This document shows positions 3,829 through 21,784 of a stretch of DNA of 32,345 nucleotides, piece after piece. The DNA comes from a virus. Within the stretch, counting starts at the first letter, position 1; each line of letters begins with the position of its first letter. The notes beneath the pieces are model-generated. The model was not told where the DNA came from. It was given only the letters and a program-made list of their open reading frames with translations, and searched no databases. The position numbers and the translations under genes are program-made. The DNA lies in the IMG/VR virus record IMGVR_UViG_3300031975_000400, positions 1 through 32,345 of that record, one strand, 5' to 3'.

Positions 3829-4737
3829 ATGGCGATTAACAGAGCACAACTAGTCAAAGAACTAGTTCCTGGACTCCATGCTCTCTTTGGATTAGAGTAT
3901 GAGAGATATAATAACGAACACGAAGACATCTTCGATACTGAGAACTCCGAAAGGGCTTTTGAGGAAGAAGTAATGTTAAGTGGATTTGGTGAAGCACCGA
4001 CTAAAGGAGAAGGAGCCGCAGTCATTTATGACACAGCTCAAGAATCCTGGACATCTCGTTTCACGCATGAAACTATCGCACTAGCGTTTGCGTTAACAGA
4101 AGAAGCAATCGAAGATAACCTCTACGACACACTTTCTTCACGTTACACAAGAGCACTAGCACGTTCGATGCAACAAACTAAGCAAGTTAAAGCAGCTAAT
4201 GTTTTAAACAATGCTTTTAGTTCATCTTACGTTGGTGGTGATGGAAAAGAGCTTTGTGCTACAGACCATCCAACTGTTGCGAACGTTGATTTAAGTAATG
4301 AGCTGTCTACAGCTGCTGACCTTAATGAAACTTCTCTAGAGCAATCATTGATTGATATCGCTGGATTTAAGGATGAAAGAAACCTTAAAGTAAATGCACA
4401 AGCAAGGAAATTAATTATTCCACCTGCTTTGCAATTCGTAGCGGATAGATTGATGGAAACTCCAGGAAGAGTTGGTACTTCAGATAACGATATTAATGCA
4501 ATTAGAAATATGGGAATGGTCTCAGAAGGCTACGTTGTAAATCATTATCTAACAGATACTGACGCTTTCTTCATCAAAACTGATGTTCCTAACGGGTTAA
4601 AACACTTTGTTAGAACTCCTGTATCTACTAGTATGGAAGGCGACTTCGAAACTGGTAACGTAAGATACAAGGCGAGAGAACGTTACAGCTTTGGTTGGAG
4701 TGACTGGAGAGGTATCTTCGGTTCACCAGGAGCCTAA
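3829..4737 (+). CDS. Major capsid protein (HK97-fold type)
   Basis: A 302-residue protein, the expected size for an HK97-fold shell subunit without a delta domain. The N-terminal helix region (ELVPGLHALFGLEYER) is followed by an EEVMLSGFGEAP loop, a segment like the Mu-gpT/marine-phage type (FTHETIALAFALTEEAIEDN), a spine-helix-like stretch at about 110-140 and an ending YSFGWSDWRGIFGSPGA that I associate with marine-phage capsid proteins. It is preceded by TAAGGAG and followed 22 bases later by a strong intrinsic terminator, the layout expected for a gene needing very high expression. It forms the icosahedral shell with the portal, scaffold-like and decoration-like proteins upstream. Confidence 0.88.
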   Translation: MAINRAQLVKELVPGLHALFGLEYERYNNEHEDIFDTENSERAFEEEVMLSGFGEAPTKGEGAAVIYDTAQESWTSRFTHETIALAFALTEEAIEDNLYDTLSSRYTRALARSMQQTKQVKAANVLNNAFSSSYVGGDGKELCATDHPTVANVDLSNELSTAADLNETSLEQSLIDIAGFKDERNLKVNAQARKLIIPPALQFVADRLMETPGRVGTSDNDINAIRNMGMVSEGYVVNHYLTDTDAFFIKTDVPNGLKHFVRTPVSTSMEGDFETGNVRYKARERYSFGWSDWRGIFGSPGA

Positions 4738-16243: not shown

Positions 16244-16359
16244 TGCCAAAAGTAGGAACAAAAAAATTTTCATACACCGCTAAAGGGAAAGCAGCAGCAA
16301 AAGCTTATGCTAAGAAAATGAAAAAGAAAAAGGGAAAAAGTAGTGCCAAGAAAAAGTAA
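16243..16359 (+). CDS. Very basic 38-residue protein
   Basis: A 38-residue peptide whose ATG shares one base with the endolysin stop (TAATG) and has AGGAGGA directly upstream. It contains 16 lysines, no acidic residue and only a few hydrophobic positions (MPKVGTKKFSYTAKGK, then a Lys-run). It is the first of three tandem basic genes. Nucleic acid binding by charge is likely, and the string KKFSYTAKGKAAAKAYAKK occurs in similar short phage peptides as I recall. A virion DNA-packaging accessory or histone-like role is inference. Confidence 0.65.
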   Translation: MPKVGTKKFSYTAKGKAAAKAYAKKMKKKKGKSSAKKK

Positions 16360-16531
16360 AACCCACAAGACTAAAGATGGTCGAACAGCTAAAAAAGGTT
16401 TATATTACAATATAAACAAAAAACGTAAAGAAGGCAGAAAAATGCGAAAGAAAGGAGCTAAAGGTGCTCCGACTGCAGCAGCCTTTAAACGTTCCGCTAA
16501 GACCGCTAAGAAGCTTAAAAAGAAAAAGTAA
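16343..16531 (+). CDS. Very basic 62-residue protein (GTG start)
   Basis: A 62-residue protein starting with GTG at 16343, overlapping the 38-residue gene by 17 bases, with AGGG about eight bases upstream. It contains 27 Lys/Arg and only two acidic residues. A short aromatic centre (GLYYNINKKRKEG) is followed by RKKGAKGAPTAAAFKRSAK. I recall the motif THKTKDGRTAKKGLYYNINKRKxxG from small basic phage proteins. No zinc or membrane motif. DNA or RNA binding, perhaps as a packaged condensing factor, is inferred from charge. Confidence 0.7.
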   Translation: MPRKSKTHKTKDGRTAKKGLYYNINKKRKEGRKMRKKGAKGAPTAAAFKRSAKTAKKLKKKK

Positions 16532-16806
16532 TGGCTAAGGCTAAGAAACGCAAAGAAAAGTCTATACGACGTACTACGAAGGGTAAGGGAGCTAATTTCC
16601 GATCTACTAAGTCTGGTGCGGGTATGACTAAGAAAGGCGTAGCGGCTTATCGACGTAAAAATCCTGGATCAAAACTAAAAACAGCGGTTACAGGTAAAGT
16701 TAAAAAAGGTAGTAAAGCAGCAAAAAGACGTAAATCATTTTGTGCTAGATCAAAAGGTTGGAAAGGTGAACGAGGTAAAGCGGCTAGAAGAAGATGGAAA
16801 TGTTAG
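16531..16806 (+). CDS. Very basic protein, DUF6321-like
   Basis: A 91-residue basic protein whose ATG shares one base with the previous stop. It has RSTKSGAGMTKKGVAAYRR followed by NPGSKLKTAVTGKVKKGSKA and KRRKSFCARSKG, then a basic end with RRRWKC. This series of blocks is characteristic of a phage protein family (Pfam DUF6321, by recall) of unknown function. Two cysteines (in SFCARS and at the C-terminus) could form a metal site or a disulphide. It is the third of three tandem Lys/Arg-rich genes and is followed without a gap by the nuclease gene, so all four are probably made together. Confidence 0.8.
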   Translation: MAKAKKRKEKSIRRTTKGKGANFRSTKSGAGMTKKGVAAYRRKNPGSKLKTAVTGKVKKGSKAAKRRKSFCARSKGWKGERGKAARRRWKC

Positions 16807-17238
16807 ATGTATGAATATAGTTGTAGGGTTAACAAAGTGGTTGATGGCGATACCATTGACGTTACTCTTGATCTTGGTTTTGATATATTGCATAAGTGTA
16901 GAGTACGCTTATACGGTATTGACACGCCTGAAAGCAGAACCCGAGACAAAGACGAAAAAGCTAGAGGTAAATTAGCCTCTAAGTTCTTACAAGACGCAAT
17001 AAACAATGGTAAAAAAATTGTTTTACAATCTAAACTAAAAGATTCTAAAGGTAAATATGGACGTGTTTTAGGGGCTGTTATTGTAGACGGTGTAGACATT
17101 AACGAAAAAATGGTATTAAACTTTCTTGCAGTTAGGTATCATGGTCAAAACAAAGAAGACGTTGAAGCAGAGCATATGGAAAACAGACGCAAGTTAATAG
17201 AATTAGGAGAGTTTGTTCCAGTAGAAACGGAGAAATAA
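16807..17238 (+). CDS. Staphylococcal-nuclease-type nuclease (TNase)
   Basis: A 143-residue nuclease with an OB-fold SNc domain throughout. The catalytic set of staphylococcal nuclease is conserved: VVDGDTIDV (D15, calcium ligand equivalent to D21), RLYGIDTPES (R34, D39, T40, E42 equivalent to R35, D40, T41, E43) and KYGRVLG (R86 equivalent to R87). There is no signal peptide, unlike the secreted bacterial enzyme, so it would cleave DNA or RNA in the infected cell or be packaged. It starts directly after the stop of the basic protein and is followed one base later by the holin-like gene. Host DNA or RNA degradation is the likely role. Confidence 0.9.
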   Translation: MYEYSCRVNKVVDGDTIDVTLDLGFDILHKCRVRLYGIDTPESRTRDKDEKARGKLASKFLQDAINNGKKIVLQSKLKDSKGKYGRVLGAVIVDGVDINEKMVLNFLAVRYHGQNKEDVEAEHMENRRKLIELGEFVPVETEK

Positions 17239-17239
17239 A

Positions 17240-17623
17240 ATGAATAACGACGGTAGATTTGGTGGAGATATGGATCGTAATGAAGTTGAGATGGATCTCA
17301 ATAAGTTCATGGCGATGATACAAGAAATATCTGATCTTAAAGATAAAATAAGAGATTTAGAAGCTGATGATAAAATAAACCCACATCAAAAATGGATTCA
17401 TTTAGCTAAAGCGGTAGACTCATGGCGTATTTTCCCTAGAGCTTTTTTAACTGTTTATATTGTTTTATTGTATAAATGTACTATTTGGTTTATGGAACTT
17501 CCTGAACCTAGTTTTGAACAATCAGGTCTTATTTCTATTGTAGTAGGTGCGGGTGCCGCATGGTTTGGTTTATATGCTGGTACAACAGGTAGTAGTAAAC
17601 AGTTTAAAGGTGAAGATTCTTGA
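17240..17623 (+). CDS. Holin-like two-span membrane protein
   Basis: A 127-residue protein. The first 50 residues are an acidic coiled coil (EVEMDLNKFMAMIQEISDLKDKI), then NPHQKWIHLAKAVDSWRIFPR, a first membrane span (AFLTVYIVLLYKCTIWFM, about residues 75-92) and a second (GLISIVVGAGAAWFGLYAG, about 102-120), with a polar tail. I recall the same order and the WRIFPR...YKxxIWFM...GAAWFGLY pattern in marine phages, usually labelled holin. It lies two genes after the endolysin gene cluster, which fits a role in inner-membrane permeabilisation. The start has GGAGAAA upstream. Confidence 0.72.
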   Translation: MNNDGRFGGDMDRNEVEMDLNKFMAMIQEISDLKDKIRDLEADDKINPHQKWIHLAKAVDSWRIFPRAFLTVYIVLLYKCTIWFMELPEPSFEQSGLISIVVGAGAAWFGLYAGTTGSSKQFKGEDS

Positions 17624-18759
17624 ATAAAAAAGAAGAAGAACAACACGACAAAATTTTTTCGTGTGTTGGAATTTTGTTTTTAATAACCGTTGTAATTGGT
17701 TTATCTATAAACGTAAACGCTCAATCTAGCCAACAATCTGGTACCGCTTGTGTTAATGGTTCTCAATACTGTGAAAACAATAGTTTAGACACTACCAACA
17801 CAACGACAACGACTAACACAAATACCAATACGAACACCAACACGAACACCAATACGAACACGAACACGAACAATAATACCAACACGAACAACAACCTTAA
17901 TACTAATACAACAACGAGTACAGCAACAAACACAAATTCAAATACCAATGTCAACACCAATACGAACAATAATGTAAACACTTCAACAGCGACTTCGACT
18001 TCAAACAACACCAACACAAACAATAACGTTAACACTTCGACTTCTAATTCAACGGTAAATTCAACAGTTAATCAAAACGTTAATAATACAAATAATTCAA
18101 CTTCAACATCGAATAATACGAACACTAACACTAACGTAAATCAATCAACTTCAGATTCGAACGTTACTACAGACAATACCAACACAAACAATAATAATTC
18201 AAAGTCTGATAATACGAATCGAAACATAAACGAATCGAACAGTACGCAAACGATTAACCAAAACGTAAAAAGCGAAGCCCCTCCTGCGTCTGCGATAGCT
18301 CCTAGTATCATGTCTTACTCACAAGACCTCTGTACAACAGGTGTCTCAGGAGCTTTTCAAGGACAGGTGTTTGGTTTATCTGGTGGTAAAACTATTGTTG
18401 ATGAAAACTGTGAAAGGTTAAAACTATCTAAGTATCTATACGATATGGGAATGAAAGTAGCATCGGTTGCATTACTCTGTCAAGACGAAAGAGTATTTAA
18501 AGCTATGTCGATGGCTGGTACGCCTTGTCCGTATAACGGTAAAATTGGTAAAGAAGCTACCGTAGCGTGGGAAGAAAACCCACAAAAAAGACCTGATAAA
18601 GATGACGCTTTAGAAGATTATATTGCTCAATGTACACATGAAGCTAACCCCAACAGAGACAAGATTAATAAAGATGTTGTAGGTTTAGTTAAAAAAACGT
18701 ATACACGGAAAACTAAAACAGCTAAACAATGCAAAAAAGAGTTTTATTCTACGCATTAG
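17620..18759 (+). CDS. Exported Asn/Thr-repeat protein with six-Cys C-terminal domain
   Basis: A 379-residue predicted exported protein. The start is an unusual TTG overlapping the holin-like stop (TTGA), with AAAGGTGAAG upstream; no internal Met occurs before residue 230. Residues 12-35 form a hydrophobic signal (FSCVGILFLITVVIGLSI) ending in VNA before QSSQQ, a likely signal peptidase site. Residues about 58-215 are an extreme Asn/Thr/Ser repeat (NTNTNTN...). The C-terminal 150 residues are compact, with six cysteines and the block NCERLKLSKYLYDMGMKVAS, then GTPCPYNGKIGKEA. I recall this family from marine phages as uncharacterised. It overlaps the next exported protein by 31 bases, so the two are probably partners. 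Confidence 0.8.
   Translation: MNKKEEEQHDKIFSCVGILFLITVVIGLSINVNAQSSQQSGTACVNGSQYCENNSLDTTNTTTTTNTNTNTNTNTNTNTNTNTNNNTNTNNNLNTNTTTSTATNTNSNTNVNTNTNNNVNTSTATSTSNNTNTNNNVNTSTSNSTVNSTVNQNVNNTNNSTSTSNNTNTNTNVNQSTSDSNVTTDNTNTNNNNSKSDNTNRNINESNSTQTINQNVKSEAPPASAIAPSIMSYSQDLCTTGVSGAFQGQVFGLSGGKTIVDENCERLKLSKYLYDMGMKVASVALLCQDERVFKAMSMAGTPCPYNGKIGKEATVAWEENPQKRPDKDDALEDYIAQCTHEANPNRDKINKDVVGLVKKTYTRKTKTAKQCKKEFYSTH
17791..18270 (+). repeat. Asn/Thr codon repeat tract
   Basis: A low-complexity tract of alternating ACN and AAY codons (for example AACACCAATACGAACACC) encodes the long Asn/Thr/Ser stretch of the exported protein. It opens a spurious antisense frame rich in Val/Leu. Confidence 0.9.
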
Positions 18760-21029
18760 GGTGTTTAGTTAGTTTTAATGTATTGGGACAGTATACATAC
18801 GAAGCTAATCAAGACCTTTATGATCTTAATGCTAATGCTAATAACTTTAACGGTGAATTAGCATACGAGGTATCTGATGATGGAATTAGTCCTGCGATTG
18901 ACCTTTCTTTTAATTTTACTTTTTATGGCTCTACGTTTAGCCAAGCAAGAATGGCAACGAATGGATGTCTCCATTTTGGTAATAGTGGGAGCTATTGTAA
19001 TGACTATACTCCTGACCCTATTAACGGACAGCACACTTATACCATATACCCTTTCTGGACTGATCTCATAAGAGATAGCGATTCTCGTATGAAGTCTTGG
19101 GGAGACTCAAGTAAGATGATTTTTGGTTGGTATAACCTTCGAGAATACAATAGAGCATCTGATAATAGTTTTGAAATTATACTTTGGAATAATAATTCTT
19201 TCGATTTACGATACGGAGAACTAGATATTATTAATCATGATGTTCTTATAGGTGAGGTTGGGGCTAATAAAGACAATTCATACACTTATTACTATCATGA
19301 TGAGTGCAATACTGGCTCAACCAACACTTCTAGTTGTTACAACTATGATTGGAATAACTCTGATAAAAATACAAACTTAGAAAATGGTGGTTCTTTATTT
19401 GGCTGGGGGTCTGGTAGTGGGCTTGATTGTAGCAACCCTTTGAATGATGCTACTTGTCCAGGTTATGATGATGCCTATCAAACTCAACAATGTGATATAG
19501 ACCAGCTATACTCTGAATCTTGTTCTGGATATGCTCAAGCTTATCAAACTCAACAATGTGATATTGATCAACTGTATTCAGAGTCTTGTTCTGGATATGC
19601 TCAAGCTTATCAAACTCAACAATGTGATATTGATCAACTTTATTCTGAAGAATGTCCATATTATGCAGAAACTTATTTATCTCAACAATGCGATATAACT
19701 GATCTTTATAGTGAATCATGTCCTAACTATTGGGATGCATACGATGACCAGCAATGTGAAGAGGATCCGCAATATGCTCCTTTTTGTGCAGGGTATAGAC
19801 AAGAAGAATCAGTAGCTTTTTTTGACGATACTAACGTAGATTACGGTTATGAAGAAGAAATGTTTCCATCTTATGAACAATTTGATAGTTATGAACCTGA
19901 AGAAGTTGTTATATTTTTTGATCCTGAACCTTTACCCTTTATCGATACTTTTAGTCCCCTTCATGACGAACCTCTCCATCAAGACGAAGTATTAATAGAT
20001 GAGTTTATATTCCAAGAAACATTTTTAGTAGAGGATTATAATGAACCTGAAACATTTATTGAATTTGATAACGTAGAAGAACTGGAAGAGTGGTTTGAAG
20101 AAGAAATTAATGAACGTTTTGAAGAAAGAATTGAAGAAGAATTTGCTGATCTTGCTGAGCCTGAAGAAGAATTTATTGAAGAAATTTTCGAGGAAGAAGC
20201 CGTAGAAGAAGTGTTTGAAGCGATTGAAGAACGCATAACAGAAGCGGAAATAGAGGAAGAAAGAATCGAAAGAGAAGAAGTTTTTGAAGAAGAGTTTGAA
20301 ATAGCTGAACGAGAAAATACTAGAGGCAAAAGTTCAATTAGTAGAGACATAGCTTTACGAGTTGTTTCTTCGACCATAGCTACAGCTACACAAAGTGTAA
20401 GTGGAACAACCGCAGGTAATAGTATTCATGCTACAGGTAATAGTGCGGCTTCTGGTAATGTTGTAAGTAATAGTTCTACAGGAGCTTCGTCGGGTAACGC
20501 AGGAATAAGTACGAGTAGTTCTCCAAGTATGTCAGACCAGTTTGCTTCAGCTACCGTACAAACAAATCAAGTATTGGATATGAGTTCTATGTCTGTTTCT
20601 AGTTCTTCTACTAGTGATTCTATGAATGCAACCGATGTTAATACTTCGGTTGTTGTTGCTAACGTAAATACTAATACAGTTCAAGATCAGATAGATACTT
20701 CGATTAGTTCTATGAGTACATCTTCTGACACAGATACTACAGTAGAAGATGTAATAGCACAAAATTTACAAACAGCACAAGAAGAAGTAGAAGCTCAACA
20801 AGAAGAAACAGGTGAATATGGTTCAGAAGATACGATTATTGCATATATGGGTTTTGTTCCTGGATTTAATACTTACGAGAAAGTTTTAATGGTAGATCAA
20901 GATCAATGGTATACGTCTAGAACCATCTATACTGAGACGATGCCTGATAATATAAACGCTTTTTATGGACTAGCGGGTAGTAATATAAGCAAAATGAACG
21001 ATATAATAAATTCACAACCACCTTTATAG
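18729..21029 (+). CDS. Exported nidogen-like protein with Cys repeats and Glu/Ser-rich stalk
   Basis: A 766-residue mosaic protein. Residues 1-20 are a Sec-type signal (KRVLFYALGCLVSFNVLG, cut before QYTYE). Residues about 33-175 resemble a NIDO (nidogen-like) domain: LSFNFTFYGSTFSQARMATNG, then YTIYPFWTDL and FEIILWNNNSFDLRYG. Residues 243-352 are five 22-residue repeats CxxYxxAYxxQQCDIDQLYSES, with twelve cysteines in this region. About 440-530 is a Glu-rich helical stalk (EEFIEEIFEEEAVEEVF), 532-690 is Ser/Thr-rich, and a distinct C-terminal domain (DTIIAYMGFVPGFNTYEKVL) ends the chain. The start overlaps the previous exported protein by 31 bases and lacks a clear ribosome site. It is probably periplasmic or cell-surface, or added to the virion; function unknown. 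Confidence 0.78.
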   Translation: MQKRVLFYALGCLVSFNVLGQYTYEANQDLYDLNANANNFNGELAYEVSDDGISPAIDLSFNFTFYGSTFSQARMATNGCLHFGNSGSYCNDYTPDPINGQHTYTIYPFWTDLIRDSDSRMKSWGDSSKMIFGWYNLREYNRASDNSFEIILWNNNSFDLRYGELDIINHDVLIGEVGANKDNSYTYYYHDECNTGSTNTSSCYNYDWNNSDKNTNLENGGSLFGWGSGSGLDCSNPLNDATCPGYDDAYQTQQCDIDQLYSESCSGYAQAYQTQQCDIDQLYSESCSGYAQAYQTQQCDIDQLYSEECPYYAETYLSQQCDITDLYSESCPNYWDAYDDQQCEEDPQYAPFCAGYRQEESVAFFDDTNVDYGYEEEMFPSYEQFDSYEPEEVVIFFDPEPLPFIDTFSPLHDEPLHQDEVLIDEFIFQETFLVEDYNEPETFIEFDNVEELEEWFEEEINERFEERIEEEFADLAEPEEEFIEEIFEEEAVEEVFEAIEERITEAEIEEERIEREEVFEEEFEIAERENTRGKSSISRDIALRVVSSTIATATQSVSGTTAGNSIHATGNSAASGNVVSNSSTGASSGNAGISTSSSPSMSDQFASATVQTNQVLDMSSMSVSSSSTSDSMNATDVNTSVVVANVNTNTVQDQIDTSISSMSTSSDTDTTVEDVIAQNLQTAQEEVEAQQEETGEYGSEDTIIAYMGFVPGFNTYEKVLMVDQDQWYTSRTIYTETMPDNINAFYGLAGSNISKMNDIINSQPPL
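19455..19784 (+). repeat. Five 66-base Cys-repeat units
   Basis: Five units of 22 codons encode CxxYxxAYxxQQC repeats. Positions 19518-19573 and 19584-19639 are identical over 56 bases, including silent sites, so the second and third units duplicated recently; the outer units have diverged. Confidence 0.88.
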
Positions 21030-21039
21030 GAGAATTACT

Positions 21040-21399
21040 ATGGATTGGTTTCAAAATAAAACAACACAAATAATAGCTCTTGTAGGTATTGTTTCAACTC
21101 TTGCAGGGTTCGGCTACACAGGTGCGACCTACGTTAATAGAGTAGAAAACCTAGAAGCTAAGATAGGCGGTATCGGAGATACTGAAGACGCTCAAAAGAT
21201 TATTGAAGAACGTTTCGCGGCTATCGAAACATCTGTACAGTTTTTAGAAAAAAGTATTGATGGTATAGCTGTTCCAGATGTTACTGAAATTAAAACGGAT
21301 ATAGCTACGATTAAAGCTGATTTAGAAAGCTTAGATGATAACTTACGTAAAGTAGAAACTAAATTAGATAAAAAAGACGATAATCCATTAAACGGATAA
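21040..21399 (+). CDS. Membrane-anchored coiled-coil protein, spanin-like
   Basis: A 119-residue protein with one N-terminal membrane span (TQIIALVGIVSTLAGFGYTG, about residues 9-28) after a short polar start, followed by about 85 residues of charged helix with heptads (VNRVENLEAKIGG ... TDIATIKADLESLDDNLRKVETKL). The arrangement of an N-terminal anchor and a long coiled coil is that of inner-membrane spanins (Rz-like) and of some virion proteins. No embedded Rz1-type lipoprotein frame was found. TAGGAG lies upstream of the ATG. It ends one base into the next start (TAATG). Position after the holin-like and exported genes favours a lysis role. Confidence 0.55.
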   Translation: MDWFQNKTTQIIALVGIVSTLAGFGYTGATYVNRVENLEAKIGGIGDTEDAQKIIEERFAAIETSVQFLEKSIDGIAVPDVTEIKTDIATIKADLESLDDNLRKVETKLDKKDDNPLNG

Positions 21400-21676: not shown

Positions 21677-21784
21677 ATGGTTGGAGTTGATAAAAAGACA
21701 TACAAAAAGAATAAAGGTCGTCGTTCTGACTTCGTAATTTATTCATCTAAAGGCAAGAAAACAAAAGCTAGGAGTAGGTTCTAA
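21677..21784 (+). CDS. Basic 35-residue peptide
   Basis: A 35-residue peptide (MVGVDKKTYKKNKGRRSDF, then VIYSSKGKKTKARSRF) with 13 Lys/Arg and two acidic residues. It has a good ribosome site (TGAGGAAA about six bases before the ATG), and its stop shares one base with the cupin-like gene's ATG. It is the first gene after the putative promoter at 21572. It resembles the basic peptides at 16243-16806 in charge but not in detailed sequence. Nucleic acid binding is inferred. Confidence 0.65.
   Translation: MVGVDKKTYKKNKGRRSDFVIYSSKGKKTKARSRF

Follow-up and report, generated by a model that had tools for sequence, protein, structure and literature searches.

A three-gene export cassette that takes the place of the phage curli module in the lysis region of marine podophages

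In close relatives among HTVC023P-like marine podophages, a three-gene cassette (genes A, B, and C) and the phage curli module repeatedly replace each other at one locus. The cassette was analysed in a 32,345-nt stretch of viral DNA (hereafter the window; IMG/VR record IMGVR_UViG_3300031975_000400), whose capsid is 71–74% identical to that of HTVC023P and to those of phages listed with other or unknown hosts. The original prediction had singled out, within the lysis region, a pair of exported proteins bearing an adhesin-type domain, with marine-phage relatives and no described function, and this picture is supported; gene C and the swapping of the complete module for curli are additional to it. 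As far as the literature found goes, the A-B-C cassette and its exchange with curli are new, with no mention of either in the available main text of PMC9599517, PMC9004378, and PMC7029224, where the role of phage curli is left open or merely proposed.

The three genes and their products

The slot in the window is laid out as follows.
16807..17238, + strand: SNase-family nuclease (Pfam), not counted in the proposed surface module
17240..17623, + strand: holin-like gene, upstream anchor of the cassette slot (phrog_10198, unknown function, E 2.7e-21); the label rests on hydrophobic segments judged by eye and on position
17620..18759, + strand: gene A, 379 aa (phrog_20531, E 5.4e-13)
17782..18285, + strand: Asn/Thr tract of A with two-residue alternation (lag analysis)
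18292..18609, + strand: conserved domain of A, common to Pelagibacter and Roseobacter phages (cross-phage alignment)
18729..21029, + strand: gene B, 766 aa
18789..19326, + strand: N-terminal beta-rich adhesin-type domain of B, RemA-like by sequence profile
19491..19787, + strand: five Cx9C units of B (aa 255–353)
21040..21399, + strand: gene C, 119 aa, third module member

Gene A starts with TTG inside a TTGA overlap with the holin-like gene, and its predicted 31-nt overlap with B is confirmed; the A–B junction overlap is conserved, measuring 31 nt in 68 of 91 distinct junctions and 28 nt in another 18. The Sec-type signals claimed for both proteins also stand, by hydropathy. Both N-termini are of the n-h-c type, with cleavage sites placed by eye between GLSINVNA and QSS in A and between MQKRVLFYALGCLVSFNVLG and QY in B, and a hydrophobic N-terminal stretch is found in 163 of 206 distinct A proteins (15-residue window) and in 157 of 181 genes next after A (12-residue window), against a background, A and B included, of 700 of 1814 genes longer than 150 aa at the same loci (12-residue window).

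In A, the leader is followed by an Asn/Thr tract (approximately aa 55–222), a four-Cys domain (approximately aa 232–330), and a tail with two further cysteines. The tract is the extreme Asn/Thr repeat that had been described: Asn recurs at a lag of two residues in 42 cases, compared with 24 ± 3 in shuffles, and is encoded by mixed synonymous codons (AAC 34, AAT 30; for Thr, ACA 15, ACG 15, ACT 13, and ACC 9). This alternation is present in the window and at loci L128 and L332, and is absent from the short tracts of HTVC023P, Mosig, and HTVC202P. The six cysteines noted in the second half of A lie at positions 238, 264, 287, 303, 338, and 371, and four of them are common to all 13 rows of the cross-phage alignment. 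The match to phrog_20531, a family with no function given, covers residues 125–316, partly within low-complexity sequence; the A proteins of HTVC202P (5.7e-9), HTVC115P (4.5e-12), and CRP-207 (1.3e-8) match the same family, which B and C do not. At E ≤ 0.1, Pfam assigns to A neither a pore nor a curlin repeat nor any other known domain. Models of A and B, each predicted singly as had been suggested, were poor, and that of A (mean pLDDT 40) was too poor for structure searching.

Gene B encodes a strongly acidic protein composed of a leader, an N-terminal beta-rich domain, the Cx9C repeats, a Glu-rich segment, a Ser/Thr segment, and a C-terminal region. The cysteine-repeat block is as described, its five Cx9C units sitting in 22-aa repeats that are in part a 66-bp DNA tandem, whereas 64 of 72 distinct B homologues have two such units. 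The nidogen-like domain also attributed to B is not supported: window B matches zero Pfam families at E ≤ 0.1, and NIDO (PF06119) is not among the 25 families listed, of 27 in all, for 63 B proteins at E ≤ 1. Instead, positions 8–165 of the B profile match residues 10–171 of chain D in PDB 8gl6, a RemA-type gliding adhesin (E 3.5e-8); the likeness to this Flavobacterium johnsoniae system is limited to the N-terminal domain and to the sequence profile. According to the available text of the 8gl6 paper, the matched region is not well resolved, and the trapped substrate is named RemZ, a homologue of RemA (PMC10994853). The B model (mean pLDDT 51, with ten-residue means of 60–88 over aa 41–190) gave no PDB match below E 0.09 with Foldseek, a best Z of 5.7 with VIA-align, within the range that the tool calls uninformative, and four viral proteins at E ≤ 0.001 in BFVD, none of known role. 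No PHROG family was found for window B, and tblastn of B, its N-terminal domain, and C against INPHARED gave no matches. A swap of the B head over a constant C-terminus occurs in 8 of 97 pairs, representing two independent cases. The C-terminal regions of window-type and HTVC023P-type B share only a short motif, and their alignment is not significant (hhalign probability 1.2); B is therefore treated across groups as a positional partner rather than a homologue.

Gene C encodes an N-terminal membrane segment, a coiled coil, and a C-terminal NPL motif, and both A and C are homologous between the window type and the HTVC023P type (for C, probability 98.6, E 1.2e-15). Of 147 window-type sequences, 135 have both A and B; in the remaining 12, the contig extends for less than 500 nt on the side of the missing gene. 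Among distinct A genes with more than 4.5 kb downstream, a gene with an N-terminal membrane segment and ending in NP[LMIV] lies within the next six genes in 43 of 45 window-type cases, the two loci where C is missing from the gene calls being L037 and L117, and in 25 of 25 HTVC023P-type cases. C is recognisable beside 10 of 29 CRP-810-type A genes, on GC-rich contigs where the gene calls, made by greedy ORF picking, are poor. At L153 and L154, the annotated A was lost in the gene calls and the profile match is a small upstream lipoprotein; some short CRP-810-type matches to A may likewise be this lipoprotein. In INPHARED, 9 of 12 loci have a C-type gene; the exceptions are HTVC115P, where the gene in C's place lacks the NPL motif, and ctXG6705 and JWAlpha, with no NPL-type C among the neighbouring genes inspected. 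A, B, and C are thus co-conserved, and C belongs to a unit with A and B.

Exchange with phage curli

The curli (T8SS) module of HTVC023P-type pelagiphages and pelagimyophages, which comprises CsgF, CsgG, CsgA/B, FecR, and adenylate cyclase genes, occupies the same slot as A-B-C in HTVC023P-like relatives, where Pfam identifies CsgF (2.3e-14), CsgG (6.7e-46), Curlin_rpt (2.2e-14), FecR (3.8e-11), and a cyclase (3.4e-12). Both modules are accessory, encode exported envelope proteins, and are found in podo- and myoviruses. In contrast to curli, A-B-C lacks the CsgG pore, the curlin repeat (PF07012, Pfam), FecR, and the cyclase; in their stead, it encodes a coiled-coil membrane protein and a protein resembling an adhesin.

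Anchored on the holin-like gene, 70 loci comprise 28 with A-B-C, 32 with Csg genes, none with both, and 10 that are unassignable, having less than 1.5 kb downstream; anchored on the downstream Rz-like gene, 80 loci comprise 48 with A-B-C, 18 with Csg genes, one with neither, none with both, and 13 that are unassignable. These loci are the best 80 matches of each scan rather than a random sample, include near-copies, and overlap between the two sets in at least 9 of 74 loci. The exchange is seen directly by comparing L329, which has A-B-C, with L348, which has Csg genes: the two are 91% identical over 963 nt, ending a few nucleotides past the holin stop codon, and 85% identical over 612 nt from the Rz-like gene onward, with no further match at E ≤ 1e-10, so that the middles are unrelated. 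On a tree of the holin gene (61 rows, 44 different sequences; a quick tree with SH-aLRT support only), five changes of occupant suffice, four of them forced by starred branches, compared with approximately 19 for random labels; the occupant is therefore mostly inherited, with repeated exchanges.

CsgG (PF03783) was not found in any of the 35 records that carry A or a gene like it; many of these are fragments, and the positive controls gave matches in 4 of 14 genomes. CsgG is also absent from a further A-bearing record, G025. The result in the 35 records speaks against export of A through a CsgG pore of the same phage. Conversely, A, B, and C are absent from 78 further CsgG loci, searched up to 9 kb on each side (L378 and L423 were left out of 80). 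Of 52 CsgG loci with sufficient sequence upstream, 15 have the holin-like gene within 2.6 kb, and of 48 loci, 19 have the Rz-like gene downstream; the slot is therefore shared by a fraction of the curli phages. Among myophages, the curli module of HTVC008M and the A-B-C module of Mosig lie at different places. The window's own holin clade (18 rows) carries A-B-C only, and the window's subtype has no Rz-like gene downstream at this position; the exchange is therefore observed in relatives and inferred for the window.

Occurrence in other phages

Related modules are present in unrelated phages, including HTVC podoviruses, the myovirus Mosig, Votkovvirus, and Roseobacter phages, across which the four-Cys domain of A is conserved and the N-terminal domain of B is exchanged. 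Elsewhere, other proteins take the position of B beside the A domain. Those of HTVC202P (E 0.02) and AP013540 (E 0.0089) show weak N-terminal Pfam matches to CBM_4_9, both below the Pfam cut-off, and any homology to the window B domain is putative; the HTVC033P partner has no such Pfam match, and those of HTVC033P and AP013540 are named carbohydrate-binding in GenBank. Achromobacter phage JWAlpha has a weak match to the A domain with no exported partner adjoining. A and B homologues thus occur independently of each other only at long range, with other partners or, weakly, in JWAlpha, and not within the window type. Two contig pattern scans, whose reach is close relatives only, revealed no bacterial relative of the CRP-810 or JWAlpha A domains. 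No A was found in HTVC010P, HTVC011P, HTVC019P, or HTVC027P, the last with a published transcriptome (PMC12753301, in its available text). Since related phages with neither A-B-C nor curli exist (HTVC027P and 023Pt_psg01), the cassette is accessory.

Upstream of A, CRP-207 and CRP-810 encode a small lipoprotein whose Cys motif resembles that of A; together with C, it would also fit an envelope-spanning, spanin-like device.

Proposed function of the cassette

We tentatively favour, at somewhat less than even confidence, a reading in which A-B-C builds an adhesive structure within the infected cell's envelope or on its surface, doing the job of the curli module of sister phages. The cassette would be export cargo of the lysis region, expressed late in infection; the cysteines of A and B would form disulphides, C would serve as an inner-membrane anchor, the alternating Asn/Thr tract could form a beta-rich fibre or spacer, and the interchangeable N-terminal domain of B could be a sugar-binding or adhesive tip. 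The effect may be the aggregation of cells or debris ("sibling capture") or the shielding of the cell, and A and B may remain periplasmic, acting once lysis exposes them. The roles originally listed (superinfection block, envelope change, aggregation, and virion decoration) are narrowed, though not decided, by the curli exchange towards a surface or aggregation role, and both cassettes may render the surface of infected cells sticky. It is conceivable, if doubtful, that A-B-C is a second, non-curli phage apparatus for extracellular fibres or adhesins, so that either of two unrelated but interchangeable cassettes yields a sticky, adhesin-tipped, disulphide-rich surface.

Unlikely, but the best of the alternatives, is a lysis or envelope-disruption module that weakens the outer membrane or times its rupture. 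Such a role would suit the position between the holin-like and Rz-like genes in relatives, the i-spanin-like architecture of C, the lipoprotein before A as a possible outer-membrane partner in CRP-207 and CRP-810, and the suggestion, in the available text of PMC9004378, that phage CsgGF pores act in lysis, as gated secretin or pinholin. Like Rz/Rz1 spanins, C combines an N-terminal membrane segment, a coiled coil, and a lysis-region position. However, window C, called spanin-like in the original prediction, matches the Rz-like family at no better than E 0.021 and more poorly than several families without known function, whereas a separate gene outside the module in relatives matches it at 7.5e-10 (phrog_739) and 2.1e-12. 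A test of 11 A-bearing records showed an Rz-like gene in 8, although four of the eight are only 26–28% identical, three of those across a TGA stop. A strict pattern scan found no lipoprotein ORF near window C, its one candidate lying far away on the minus strand, and the four HTVC phages named above lack A. In some relatives, C is followed by a gene for a 64-aa lipoprotein that is weakly Rz1-like (E 0.025). Since relatives encode an Rz-like spanin separately from the module, A-B-C is unlikely to be the spanin, and the possibility that it is the phage's only spanin is rejected or at least weakened. No lysis terms were found in PMC10504331.

Exclusion of superinfecting or competing phages, in which A and B, once exported, would mask or bind surface receptors of the infected cell, seems quite unlikely. 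It would account for the exchangeable N-terminal domain of B and the accessory distribution, and superinfection defence is among the options that the available text of PMC9599517 gives for phage curli; however, the late-region position would make it late, as far as position indicates timing, and the window-type N-terminal domains of B, 48–100% identical to the window's, are not obviously fast-evolving.

A common slot is not a common function, and a permissive site could hold unrelated cargo, with A-B-C and curli merely using the same insertion site. This objection to a curli-equivalent role draws on HTVC027P and 023Pt_psg01, which can do without both modules, and on the SNase gene, which lies before or after the holin-like gene, also in curli loci. 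The unrelated-cargo reading is improbable, as only two large occupants are seen in 60 and 66 assignable loci (overlapping sets of best matches), both are exported envelope modules, and no examined record holds both. A part in virion decoration or as tail adhesin is highly improbable: the adhesin-type domain of B, a weak structural likeness to a Xanthomonas phage tail fibre (E 7.6e-3), the tail-adhesin-like gene at 21784, and the placement of the HTVC115P module after structural genes are outweighed by the Sec-type N-termini of A and B and the lack of a PHROG family for B. No virion-proteome paper for these phages was found in the literature.

The grouping brings "hypothetical protein" genes of HTVC023P, HTVC033P, HTVC115P, HTVC202P, Baldr, and Mosig into one unit. 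A cassette that repeatedly replaces curli at one site amounts to a natural experiment: should the two be equivalent in function, their common property is the selected function, and models that require the CsgG pore itself, such as uptake or a pinholin, become less likely. If A-B-C is indeed a second fibre or adhesin apparatus interchangeable with curli, oceanic phages would be under strong selection to control the stickiness of cells that are about to lyse.

Composition and conservation of the three-gene module

The original prediction of two open reading frames overlapping by 31 nt, gene A (window 17620-18759) and gene B (18729-21029), is borne out. A encodes 379 aa, in which a hydrophobic leader is followed by an Asn/Thr tract and a cysteine-containing C-terminal half; B encodes 766 aa, starting with a leader and a beta-rich N-terminal domain, which are followed by Cx9C repeats, Glu-rich and Ser/Thr segments, and the C-terminal region. 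Both leaders were assessed from composition and hydropathy. A Pfam search of A and B found no family, and A matches PHROG 20531, for which no function is given. The Asn/Thr tract of A shows a period-2 alternation (N–N at lag 2 observed 42 times vs 24 ± 3 after shuffling) and is written in mixed synonymous codons, a pattern indicative of selection acting on the encoded protein rather than of DNA slippage. The repeats of B are partly a 66-bp DNA tandem (window 19453-19696) that supplies extra Cx9C units, five being present in the window and two in 64 of 72 distinct homologues, and the length of the B stalk therefore varies.

The usual order in A-bearing phages is A, a leader-bearing protein, and a small protein that has a membrane segment at its N-terminus, contains a coiled coil, and ends in NPL or a close variant; in the window, this small gene is C (21040-21399). 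The C proteins of the window and HTVC023P types align with a probability of 98.6 (E 1.2e-15). Among distinct A genes with more than 4.5 kb downstream, a C-type gene lies within six genes after A in 43/45 of the window type, 25/25 of the HTVC023P type, and 10/29 of the CRP-810 type, and it follows A in 9 of 12 INPHARED loci; elsewhere in the surveyed loci, 20 of 2736 genes end in an NPL-type motif. In the Roseobacter phages CRP-207 and CRP-810, the C-type genes (193 aa with the end NPL, and 140 aa with the end NPLGR, respectively) are annotated as lysozymes in GenBank, a label that looks doubtful. Another membrane-anchored coiled-coil gene is common to HTVC019P (L319:38973-39338), HTVC010P (L320:25223-25585), and HTVC115P (L148:10917-11279); it replaces C in HTVC115P, and the other two phages are without A.

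Genes adjoining A in two Roseobacter phages
L154:8558-8815 (CRP-810), small lipoprotein directly upstream of A, lipobox LSAC or LAGC, matches the A profile
L153:1728-1937 (CRP-207), small lipoprotein directly upstream of A, lipobox LSAC or LAGC, matches the A profile
L153:3292-3870 (CRP-207 gp73), GenBank lysozyme with a membrane segment, coiled coil, and NPL end, in the position of C
L154 (CRP-810 gp51), GenBank lysozyme with a membrane segment, coiled coil, and NPL-type end, in the position of C

The lipoproteins of CRP-810 and CRP-207 match the A profile with E-values of 2.8e-7 and 4.9e-6, and carry a shortened A-like cysteine motif. Each is possibly an outer-membrane paralogue of A, and their location hints at an outer-membrane tether in these phages.

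The N-terminal domain at the position of B varies by group. It is RemA-like in the window type, where the profile match to a RemA-type adhesin reaches E 3.5e-8; the substrate in the matched PDB entry is named as the RemA homologue RemZ and described as well resolved in its C-terminal domain only (PMC10994853), so the match holds at the level of sequence. HTVC202P and AP013540 have a CBM_4_9-like N-terminus (weak, below the Pfam cut-off), ctXG6705 has a Cys-rich protein annotated TonB, and the Roseobacter phages have proteins that appear helical by eye. Within the HTVC023P type, the N-domains are less than 40% identical in 8 of 97 pairs whose C-termini are at least 85% identical, indicating two independent N-domain swaps.

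Exchange with a curli module

In some related phages, the position of A-B-C downstream of the holin-like gene (window 17240..17623, phrog_10198) is occupied by a module in which Pfam recognizes CsgF, CsgG, curlin repeats, FecR, and a CHASE2 adenylate cyclase; such a curli module has been described from HTVC023P-type phages (PMC9599517). Anchored loci comprised the best 80 hits per scan. Of the 70 further contigs that have the holin-like gene as anchor, A-B-C is present in 28 and CsgF or CsgG in 32; none has both, and 10 have less than 1.5 kb downstream. Anchoring on the 131-aa gene found 3' of either module gave 48 loci with A-B-C, 18 with Csg, one with neither, none with both, and 13 undetermined (n = 80), and the 392 sequences gathered divide into 324 with A only, 32 with Csg only, 36 with neither, and none with both. 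Likewise, a search of 78 further CsgG loci found none of A, B, or C, and no CsgG was found among the 35 records in which A or an A-like gene is present. Between the loci L329 and L348, 91% nucleotide identity ends a few nucleotides beyond the holin stop codon and resumes at 85% from the 131-aa gene onward, with no further match between these stretches.

On a tree of the holin gene with 61 rows, 44 of them different, the occupant changes five times, four of these forced by well-supported branches, vs about 19 for random labels; the occupant is thus mostly inherited, yet repeatedly exchanged. All 18 rows of the clade holding the window carry A-B-C, and the gene after C in its subtype is not Rz-like, so that the exchange is shown for relatives of the window. 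An SNase-family nuclease gene (window 16807-17238; L329:2658-3101) precedes or follows the holin-like gene in A-B-C phages, and 64 of 78 curli loci (L477-L554) contain one as well.

Spanin genes, dispensability, and distribution

The 131-aa gene is Rz-like (phrog_739, E 7.5e-10 and 2.1e-12); downstream of it in L329 is an endolysin gene (E 4.5e-55), and curli modules have an endolysin downstream only sometimes. An Rz-like gene is present in 8 of 11 A-bearing records, four of the eight at 26–28% identity, and three of these four contain an internal TGA, including G001, a near-identical sister of the window. A-B-C is therefore probably not the spanin. One Rz-like gene (L455:6501-6893) lies away from the slot; the contig that carries it is also the source of L350, in which A-B-C comes after the holin-like gene.

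Neither A nor CsgG was found in HTVC027P, 023Pt_psg01, DSL-LC04, CRP-901, Pag-Yong1, HTVC010P, HTVC011P, or HTVC019P, and the cassette is therefore accessory cargo rather than essential. A-B-C is carried by HTVC023P, HTVC033P, and Mosig, and curli by HTVC008M. Upstream in the window lie genes for two small, very basic Lys/Arg-rich proteins of 62 and 91 aa (16343-16531 and 16531-16806), the latter resembling by eye a 93-aa HTVC010P protein (L320:26149-26430).

Relatives of B occur in 189 IMG/VR stretches (79 loci kept), and tblastn found none in INPHARED. With the window query, the A domain was detected in 11 INPHARED records, and the HTVC023P query gave 13, JWAlpha being counted twice among these. 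The carriers are Pelagibacter podoviruses, two Roseobacter phages, the myovirus Mosig, two genomes from freshwater springs, and AP013540, an Autographiviridae genome, with a weak match in Achromobacter phage JWAlpha. All 13 aligned A rows have four cysteines in common. The weak relative, JWAlpha gp25 (L158:5455-6369), has a leader and a Gly/Asn/Ser/Gln-rich tract, and lies among early-type genes of a Schitoviridae genome without an adjoining exported partner. The window capsid (3829-4737) is 71–74% identical to those of HTVC023P, 023Pt_psg01, and DSL-LC04 (for which Gammaproteobacteria is the listed host) and shares 58% identity with those of Planktothrix phages, and thus does not fix the host.

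Proposed role of the slot

Roles proposed for phage curli include sibling aggregation, superinfection defence, and molecule import (PMC7029224, PMC9599517), and one proposal has them forming a channel for lysis (PMC9004378). A-B-C and phage curli appear to have in common that they are exported, include a secreted protein of low complexity, and have a part bound to the envelope, whereas the pore belongs to curli. We hold with high confidence that A and B are of exported type, that A, B, and C are co-conserved, and that they are exchanged as a module with curli in relatives, and with moderate confidence that the common function is adhesion or aggregation. Confidence is low in the architecture proposed for A-B-C, because both structure models are poor; A would be a fibre or spacer, B an interchangeable adhesin, and C an anchor. 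The main weakness of the adhesive reading is that no outer-membrane route is evident for A-B-C, a need that would be avoided if the module acted at or after lysis, once the periplasmic contents are exposed. The most parsimonious interpretation is that selection at this slot would favour, late in infection, an adhesive product in the envelope or at the surface.
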